Assembly: GCF_028649655.1 (NCBI RefSeq)
Contig: NZ_JAQSLN010000001.1
Location: forward strand, 248,001 to 312,000
Direction: 5' to 3'
Length of the DNA: 64,000 bases
Origin: Halobacteriovorax sp. GB3
GTDB taxonomy: Bacteria > Bdellovibrionota > Bacteriovoracia > Bacteriovoracales > Bacteriovoracaceae
Shown here: positions 6,335-8,146 of the stretch, piece after piece
Position numbering within the stretch: position 1 is the first letter of the stretch
Layout: every line of letters begins with the position of its first letter
Translations under genes and position numbers: made by a program
The notes under the pieces: generated by a model
Told to the model about the DNA's origin: nothing
The model's input: only the letters and a program-made list of their open reading frames with translations
Databases searched by the model: none

Positions 6335-7111
6335 ATGATTGATTTAAAAAGTGAAGAGGATCTCGTTCTTTATCGTGAGACGGGGAAAATAGCTGGAGAG
6401 ATTTTAACTCGTCTAATCCCTGAGGTTAAGCCTGGCGTGTCGACTTACGATATTGCGAAATTAGCTGAAAAATGGATTCGTGAGGATTATGATGCGATTC
6501 CTTCATCGATTGGACAATACGATTTTCAATTTGCTCTTAACTCATCTATTAACCATGTCGTTTGCCATGGGGTACCTTCTAGAGATGAAATCCTTAAAGA
6601 AGGTGATATTGTTAATCTTGATGTCACTGTTAAAAAGCATGGCTTCATTGCTGATACTTCTCGCATGTATCTAGTTGGAGAGTGTAGCGAAGAGGCACAA
6701 AAGCTATGTCATGTGACAAGAGAGTGTTTAATTAAAGGAATTGAACAAGTTAAGGCCGGAAATACACTCGGCGATATTGGTTTTCATGTTCATAGGCATG
6801 CTACGAGAAATAACTATACAATCGTTAAAGAGTATTGTGGTCACGGTATTGGTCGAAATATGCACGAAGATCCACAAGTTCTTCACTACGGTAAAAAACG
6901 TAAAGGGCTAAAGCTTGAAAAGGGTATGGTTTTTACAATTGAGCCGATGGTGAATGAAGGAAGTTCACAGATTGAACATCTAGATGATGACTGGACTGTT
7001 GTGACAGTTGATCGCAAATTATCTGCTCAGTGGGAACATACGATCGTCGTGACTGATACTGGTTATGAGATTCTTACTCTGAGAGATGAAGAAAAAGACC
7101 TAGTGAAGTAG
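6335..7111 (+). CDS. map: type I methionine aminopeptidase
   Basis: This 258-residue cytosolic enzyme removes the initiator methionine from nascent proteins. The family's metal ligands are visible: NLDVTV and IADTSRMY give the two Asp, GHGIGRNMHEDP the His, FTIEPM and WEHTIVV the two Glu, and VCHGVP the substrate-site His. Length is normal for type Ia enzymes without the N-terminal zinc extension. It follows the methyltransferase by one base. It may be a second Map copy, because map often sits near secY or rpsB, neither of which is seen here. Confidence 0.93.
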   Translation: MIDLKSEEDLVLYRETGKIAGEILTRLIPEVKPGVSTYDIAKLAEKWIREDYDAIPSSIGQYDFQFALNSSINHVVCHGVPSRDEILKEGDIVNLDVTVKKHGFIADTSRMYLVGECSEEAQKLCHVTRECLIKGIEQVKAGNTLGDIGFHVHRHATRNNYTIVKEYCGHGIGRNMHEDPQVLHYGKKRKGLKLEKGMVFTIEPMVNEGSSQIEHLDDDWTVVTVDRKLSAQWEHTIVVTDTGYEILTLRDEEKDLVK

Positions 7112-7142
7112 TTTCAGTAACTTATGTAATATACTTTATTCA

Positions 7143-7194
7143 GACTCCATTGCCCCATTTTTTGGGAGGCGGTATCGTCGCCGTCAGTGGAGTC
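7143..7194 (+). promoter_or_regulatory. structured leader that pairs with a ribosome binding site
   Basis: GACTCCATTG (7143-7152) pairs with CAGTGGAGTC (7185-7194) to give a 10-bp stem with one G-U. Inside are two small hairpins: CCCA/TGGG (7154-7157/7163-7166) and GGCG/CGCC (7168-7171/7179-7182, loop GTATCGT). The result would be a three-way junction. The outer 3' strand includes GGAG (7189-7192), the likely ribosome binding site for the ATG at 7199. It is strikingly GC-rich for this genome and ends without a T-run, so a terminator for map is less likely than a riboregulator. Confidence 0.5.
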
Positions 7195-7198
7195 GTTG

Positions 7199-7606
7199 AT
7201 GATCAATATTATTTCAAAGGCATTTTCAAAAAAAATACTCTTTGTTCTTAGTTTAAGAGCTAGTTTTTATGTGTCTCTTTTCTTCAGTGTCGCGATCTAC
7301 TTATCATTCATTACCAGTATTATTCCTCAAACCATTGAGGCCCAAAGTTTTCACTTTCTGCCTTATCTCTCTTTGATACTCTGTTTTACAATGTATCATA
7401 AAAGTAAAAATATTGAGGATATTGAAGGACTAAGAAAGAATACAATCATCTCATGTCTTTCAATTCTTTTCTTTGTTCTCTTTCCAACAATGATCTATGG
7501 ATATACGTTCATTCCATTTTCTGAAGGTGTGTATTTTTACTTTTTCAGTTTTCTTTGTTCACTGGCTTTAATCTCTATTGTTGCTCTTTCAGCGATTTTT
7601 GTTTAG
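7199..7606 (+). CDS. small multi-pass membrane protein of unknown function
   Basis: This 135-residue protein has four hydrophobic segments (about residues 18-38, 50-65, 80-102 and 110-133). No family is recognised. I prefer the ATG at 7199 over the in-frame GTG at 7187, because GGAG at 7189-7192 is correctly spaced for 7199 and the GTG lies inside the leader stem. It follows map by 87 bases that fold into a three-way junction, which may regulate it. Confidence 0.55.
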   Translation: MINIISKAFSKKILFVLSLRASFYVSLFFSVAIYLSFITSIIPQTIEAQSFHFLPYLSLILCFTMYHKSKNIEDIEGLRKNTIISCLSILFFVLFPTMIYGYTFIPFSEGVYFYFFSFLCSLALISIVALSAIFV

Positions 7607-7687
7607 ATGATTTGCCTTTGCAAATTTTTCAATCAAAGAGAAAGTTTTTTCTCTTGAGGCTATGATGGGCCTATGAGGAGAGAGGTT

Positions 7688-8146
7688 ATGAGATCTAAAA
7701 TCAAGTTATTCGTTGTTGCACTATCTACATTAATTACAGTTCATGCTAAGGCTACATCACACGTAGAATACAGCTGTTTGAATGAGTTTATGCAACTTCA
7801 AAGAACTTTTGGAAGCTTATCAGCTGCAAAAGATATTCAATACTCAATTGATCATCTGGTTTATTCTCTAGAAGAAAAGAACAATTCAAATTTTTTATAT
7901 GATCTTCTTGTTTCAGATTTTGAGATTGAACAAAGAAAGATTGAAAAGACAAGAATTTCTAAAATCGTTTCATACAGAAATACGACTTACGTCATCGCAA
8001 AAAAGACTTATCATCAATGTCATAACTTCTATGCTTCTAGTGAAATTTCATACGAAGAAATTGAGGGGATGTTTGATGAAGAACTCGTTAGTTCTATTAA
8101 GAAATTTAAGACAACTGAGTTGAAATTACTTTTTGACCTAGATTAG
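7688..8146 (+). CDS. exported protein of unknown function
   Basis: This 152-residue protein has a Sec signal peptide (MRSKIKLFVVALSTLITVHA), and the mature part is mostly helical and charged, with two Cys (EYSCLNEF and YHQCHNFY) that could form a disulfide. An upstream in-frame ATG at 7673 exists, but AGGAG at 7676-7680 is well placed for 7688 and that start gives a proper signal peptide. It converges with hrpB, 6 bases apart. No family recognised. Confidence 0.6.
   Translation: MRSKIKLFVVALSTLITVHAKATSHVEYSCLNEFMQLQRTFGSLSAAKDIQYSIDHLVYSLEEKNNSNFLYDLLVSDFEIEQRKIEKTRISKIVSYRNTTYVIAKKTYHQCHNFYASSEISYEEIEGMFDEELVSSIKKFKTTELKLLFDLD

Follow-up and report, generated by a model that had tools for sequence, protein, structure and literature searches.

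The window analysed here, meaning the whole 64,000-nucleotide stretch of DNA at positions 248001-312000 of contig C1 in the genome of Halobacteriovorax sp. GB3 (G000; 3.6 Mb, 9 contigs), carries on its plus strand a gene for type I methionyl aminopeptidase, map (6335..7111; TIGR00500, 303.5 bits), followed co-directionally by two orphan genes. The first of these (7199..7606, plus strand), recognised as an open reading frame (ORF) and by hydropathy and a codon test, would encode a hydrophobic protein of 135 aa. The second (7673..8146, plus strand) is an ORF of 157 aa assigned to no family in the family search, and its product is present in one of 39 genomes, namely its own. The map stop codon (7111) and the ATG at 7199 are separated by 87 nt, and a predicted RNA stem at 7143-7194, beginning 31 nt past the stop, covers the ribosome binding site of the first orphan gene. 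Directly after that gene, at 7610-7629, a short weak stem and T-run (ATTTGC-CTTT-GCAAAT-TTTT) can be read, possibly a weak terminator. The genome contains a second map gene (G000:C3:851162-851920), 47% identical to that at 6335-7111, and additional copies also occur elsewhere, with two in G001, a member of the same genus, two in G065 and three in G027.

The 7199 ORF is likely a real gene, likely rather than certain because its synonymous codons fit the genome while its overall codon score and positional GC are poor. Its in-frame synonymous codon score is 0.087, against 0.058 +/- 0.043 for real genes, and tops the other five frames. The overall codon score is 0.02, about 1.5 SD under the genes of the genome, with one reverse frame scoring higher (0.05), and the three codon positions differ little in GC, which is not so in map. 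The product has hydrophobic segments at approximately residues 13-46, 83-107 and 117-135 (Kyte-Doolittle), and its single-sequence AlphaFold model is all-helical and poor (pLDDT 63.5, pTM 0.39). Searches of Pfam, NCBIfam, PDB sequences, phages and viral contigs returned no family or relative, PHROGs gave a single match (E 0.48), and the genome_contigs collection and up to 368 genomes of the phylum contained no credible relative. Three weak matches, in its own genome (E 0.0026, three internal stops), in G032 (E 0.0047, one stop) and in G251 (E 8.8e-4, no stop), were put down to chance, given how low they score and how many genomes were searched. The lack of credible relatives, together with the overall codon score, the competing reverse frame and the flat positional GC, favours the view that the stem has no function, having arisen by chance or being in decay, and that the ORF behind it is unexpressed or no real gene. 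This is distinctly improbable, since the in-frame synonymous score is as good as that of real genes, the ATG is well spaced from its Shine-Dalgarno sequence (SD), and the fold is seldom equalled by shuffled sequences.

The predicted structure consists of a 10-bp closing stem, GACTCCATTG/CAGTGGAGTC, enclosing two small hairpins. The closing pairs join G7143-G7152 to C7185-C7194 and include one G-U. The 5' arm (7143..7152, plus strand; from sequence and folds) contains the anti-SD CTCC at 7145-7148, which is the partner of the fully paired SD GGAG at 7189-7192 in the 3' arm (7185..7194, plus strand; from folds and SD pairing probability). The inner hairpins, both from the folds and on the plus strand, are formed by CCCA and TGGG (7154..7166; pairs 7154-7157/7163-7166) and by GGCG(G) and (T)CGCC (7168..7182; pairs 7168-7171(72)/7178(79)-7182). 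Sequence and folds agree with the sequence-only reading, which had described a 10-bp closing stem, two inner hairpins and GGAG in the outer 3' strand. The ATG at 7199 follows the SD with a 6-nt spacer, and an in-frame GTG at 7187, an alternative start of the same ORF, would itself sit inside the stem. A second possible SD within the element, GGGAGG at 7165-7170, was rejected because by reading no start codon lies at proper spacing.

In a 65-nt window the minimum free energy is -26.3 kcal/mol (z -3.6), and in a 114-nt window -32.7 kcal/mol (z -4.0); in each case one dinucleotide shuffle in 200 is equally stable. The GC content of 7143-7194 is 58%, whereas the surveyed genomic DNA has 37%. The fold model gives an SD pairing probability of 1.00 and a cost of 10.8-11.5 kcal/mol for opening the SD. 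An RNA thermometer was considered and rejected, the modelled SD pairing remaining at least 0.997 up to 65 C. By its predicted structure, the element belongs to the general kind of RBS-sequestering stems.

Comparison with relatives revealed no counterpart. The sequence of 7143-7194 is single copy in its own genome, which excludes a dispersed repeat (REP/MITE-like). A DNA search of 129 genomes of the family found no relative of the stem, the other matches being short and at chance level, and a covariance model built from the single sequence found no credible structural relative in the same genomes; its seven weak matches beyond the own copy, in six genomes (E 0.026-0.61 per genome), are sequences without the fold and were judged to be chance. 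The closest relatives of map are in Bacteriovorax sp. DB6_IX (86% over the best segment), a metagenome-assembled genome (MAG) labelled uncultured Oligoflexia (85%) and G001 (85%). In three map orthologues (L006 of G001, L045 and L050; 85-86% identity), other genes lie downstream and no comparable stem is present 3' of map: the best 65-nt folds there reach -11.2 (L045) and -12.0 (L050) kcal/mol, and in L006, inspected by eye, the next ORF begins a few nt past the map stop. Among ten map loci examined, folds of -19 kcal/mol or lower occur in L046, L051 and L062 (-28.4 in L062), with no visible sequence resemblance to the stem at 7143-7194. The hrpB homologue of G001 is approximately 16 kb from map, so the map-hrpB interval is variable. 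In the closest map orthologues the fold is thus not kept downstream of map instead of upstream of the orphan gene, a possibility raised earlier. With no sequence or structure relative in the 129 genomes, and with the orphan protein lacking credible relatives beyond its own genome, the idea of a conserved RNA is unsupported. The fold is a real structure, ordinary in kind and unconserved as far as tested.

The branched form with two inner hairpins, the locally high GC and the position of the SD in the outer stem speak for a conditional switch, in which a ligand, protein or small RNA would open or stabilise the lock (riboswitch-like or sRNA-controlled). The other evidence makes this unlikely. The Rfam 15 covariance models give no match in the window at gathering score, and at E<=10 the region 7080-7260 yields only four snoRNA/SmY matches, all far below gathering and none meaningful. 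The best structure with the SD open is 11-14 kcal/mol worse in the model than the closed fold, and no ready two-state switch is thus visible. The orphan gene offers no hint of a ligand, and the family genomes hold no relative of the stem at the level of DNA or of the structure model. No evidence was found that the stem senses a ligand, and both the suggestion of a ligand-responsive RNA and the riboswitch reading gain no support from these results.

The strength of the stem was placed in context by surveying gene starts and gaps in sampled DNA of the own genome (approximately 1.26 of 3.62 Mb; L126-L145, L154-L193 and the window), of G001 (approximately 1 of 3.7 Mb; L194-L251) and of G003, a member of another genus of the same family (0.4 of 3.4 Mb). 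Genes were called by a simple, heuristic and uncurated ORF rule (ORFs of at least 70 aa, keeping the longest and placing the start by SD and ATG). For SD-opening cost, coverage of the SD by gap hairpins and enriched k-mers, genes were retained when they had an ATG start and an SD of at least four bases, giving 604 of 1203 genes in G000, 418 in G001 and 135 in G003. The start at 7199, with a cost of 11.5 kcal/mol, ranks 12th among the 604 genes of its genome. In an earlier, looser pass its fold energy ranked second of 234 (from 432 genes), and among co-directional gaps of 40-200 nt its hairpin energy ranks fourth of the 273 in the two same-genus genomes together and second of the 158 in G000. 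The view of a branched, GC-rich RNA over the RBS of a gene for a hydrophobic protein is accordingly borne out in silico, and the structure is stronger than those at nearly all comparable sites. The earlier count of two places in the window with an RBS in a long stem also holds, the second strong case being the ATG at 317. That start, of a 196-aa ORF, is preceded by an SD-hiding stem at 275-317 (AGTCCTTGTTTTAA.../...TTAAAACAAGGACT) with an opening cost of about 12.6-13.0 kcal/mol.

Across the genus, stems of this strength are over-represented. A cost of at least 9 kcal/mol was found for 37 of 1022 genes in G000 and G001, compared with about 7 in shuffles. By genome, the counts are 22 of 604 at a cost of at least 9 (4.6-4.8 expected from shuffles) and 17 at a cost of at least 10 (1.8-2.6 expected) in G000, and 15 of 418 (1.8-2.2 expected) and 12 (0.6-1.0 expected) at the same thresholds in G001; shuffle expectations differ slightly by run, as in the values of 2.6 and 1.8 for G000 at the higher threshold. 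The excess depends on the threshold, and is absent in G000 at a cost of at least 4 (154 observed, 160 expected). G003 shows no excess, with one of 135 at a cost of at least 9 (0.6 expected) and five against 7.8 expected at a cost of at least 6. The cost thresholds (9 and 10) and the gap limits (20-200 and 40-200 nt) were set after the first lists had been viewed.

The strong cases, with a cost of at least 9, have a characteristic setting. After removal of one whose context is unknown and of another within an operon-like pair, 35 of the 37 remain, and 29 of these follow a co-directional gene at a distance of 20-200 nt; among weak cases the proportion is 241 of 601 (Fisher p 6e-7). In G000 and G001, hairpins of -12 kcal/mol or lower in the gaps cover the SD in 38 of 121 cases, where uniform placement predicts 23.3 (21 against 12.2 in G000, 17 against 11.1 in G001), and G003 gives five against 1.9 expected, from few cases. 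T-runs accompany four of the 38 SD-covering hairpins and 30 of the 83 not covering the SD (p 0.004), and the strong SD-hiding stems of the genus are mostly not terminators. The k-mers enriched in the strong set are mainly anti-SD-like, as the way in which the set was chosen leads one to expect; together with the lack of a -10 box excess in the loops and the weak conservation between the two species, this speaks against a mechanism common to these stems. From 65 usable orthologue pairs between G000 and G001, the two in which the own-genome member has a cost of at least 9 were testable for conservation, and neither contains a convincingly conserved stem (costs 13.5 vs 8.9 and 10.1 vs 3.6).

These figures also bear on the interpretation of 7143-7194 as a 3'-end element of map, stabilising the mRNA end or marking processing or non-canonical termination, with overlap of the SD through crowding. 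Its position 31 nt past the map stop is typical of the set (median upstream stop-to-stem distance of 31.5 nt over the 38 SD-covering stems), and the strong stems of the genus do sit between co-directional genes. Against this stand the lack of a T-run on either strand, the poverty of SD-covering stems in T-runs, the coverage of the SD above the expectation for uniform placement, and the absence of such a stem from the three closest map orthologues, making this interpretation quite unlikely. An intrinsic terminator in particular was rejected, with no T-run after either arm on either strand and no terminator-like site in 6900-7900.

Transcription of the stem was considered in the same context. 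A promoter scan of 7060-7190 gave a best score of 8 of 12, which random stretches taken from the window reach as well. The only candidate for a leader peptide is, by reading, an ATG-TAA at 7124-7129, and was rejected. With no evident promoter, and with only 31 nt between the map stop and the stem, the element may be intercistronic rather than a leader; of the earlier description, the covering of the RBS stands, and the term leader calls for caution.

RBS-occluding stems are known from several systems. In Bacillus subtilis, an RBS hairpin dampens translation of sigG, and when transcription reads through from the upstream operon the RBS is hidden by a long stem, for which 20+ bp are proposed (PMC5942855). 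RBS-sequestering hairpins are described in T4 gene e, soc and I-TevI and in phage Aeh1 mobE (PMC2988022); I-TevI escapes its stem because this forms only on transcripts from upstream early/middle promoters. Intercistronic stem-loops of Salmonella mgtC-mgtB control translation of the downstream membrane-protein gene, and a translated short ORF, mgtQ, bears on the stems (PMC8092293). The structure at 7143-7194 resembles sigG in its (here predicted) occlusion of the RBS by an RNA stem, the phage hairpins in placing the RBS within a stable stem, and mgtC-mgtB in its intercistronic position before a membrane-protein gene. It is unlike sigG in being branched, showing no evident internal promoter, lying before an orphan gene, lacking conservation and being known in silico only; unlike I-TevI in having no evident promoter for a stem-free transcript; and unlike mgtC-mgtB in that by reading no short ORF with its own SD is seen in the 87-nt gap. 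By analogy, the lock would be a further example of a known form of control by RBS occlusion.

The sigG and T4 gene e precedents (PMC5942855, PMC2988022) and the co-directional upstream gene suggest a read-through guard, in which the stem would form only in map transcripts while a promoter within it would give a 5'-truncated, translatable mRNA. A poor promoter pair, TTGCCC-17-TATCGT, is present at 7150-7178, but the best promoter score is at chance level for the window, and -10 boxes between anti-SD and SD are not enriched in the strong set (13 of 37, against 10.8 expected). Transcripts with 5' ends at 7150-7180 still leave the SD paired in silico; since the SD pairs elsewhere when the 5' arm is missing, a guard with an internal promoter is disfavoured, and we consider it very unlikely at this locus. 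Three SD-hiding stems of G001, at L207 (~10079, minus strand), L196 (~14584, minus strand) and L245 (~13144, plus strand), carry an exact TATAAT within the loop or beside it; these make candidate read-through guards containing a promoter, even though -10 boxes show no general enrichment.

The preferred explanation, to which we assign a probability of about 0.5, is that the 87-nt spacer between map and the orphan membrane-protein gene contains a static translational lock, one of the over-represented set of stems in the genus. Because the gap shows neither a terminator nor a convincing promoter, transcripts of the map operon would extend into the 7199 gene. The RNA would fold at once, the 10-bp stem and its two inner hairpins burying the GGAG, as predicted in silico, and ribosomes would rarely initiate at 7199, leaving the protein scarce relative to Map. 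With the stem starting 31 nt past the map stop, no simple translational coupling is expected: by the usual ribosome footprint, a terminating map ribosome would be too distant to melt the stem. The fold with its capture of the SD, its high ranks for fold energy, hairpin energy and opening cost, and the excess and setting of strong stems in the two genomes speak for this explanation. The single copy of the stem and its lack of relatives count against it, as do the unconvincing conservation in the two testable orthologue pairs, the dependence of the excess on the threshold, its absence in G003 and the uncurated gene starts.

Taken alone, the stem at 7143-7194 is one unconserved case of a device already familiar. 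The genus-wide excess is a modest lead, and more interesting than the single stem; a limited literature search turned up no work that describes such stems for Bdellovibrio or Bacteriovorax. A speculative and rather doubtful extension is that intercistronic, non-terminator, SD-locking stems serve the genus systematically to set or switch the translation of genes lying behind a co-directional gene. The stem at 7143-7194 would then be one of them, and a trans-acting factor common to the set might open it at some point in the life cycle. If the excess does reflect regulation, post-transcriptional control would extend further in these bacteria than has been assumed.
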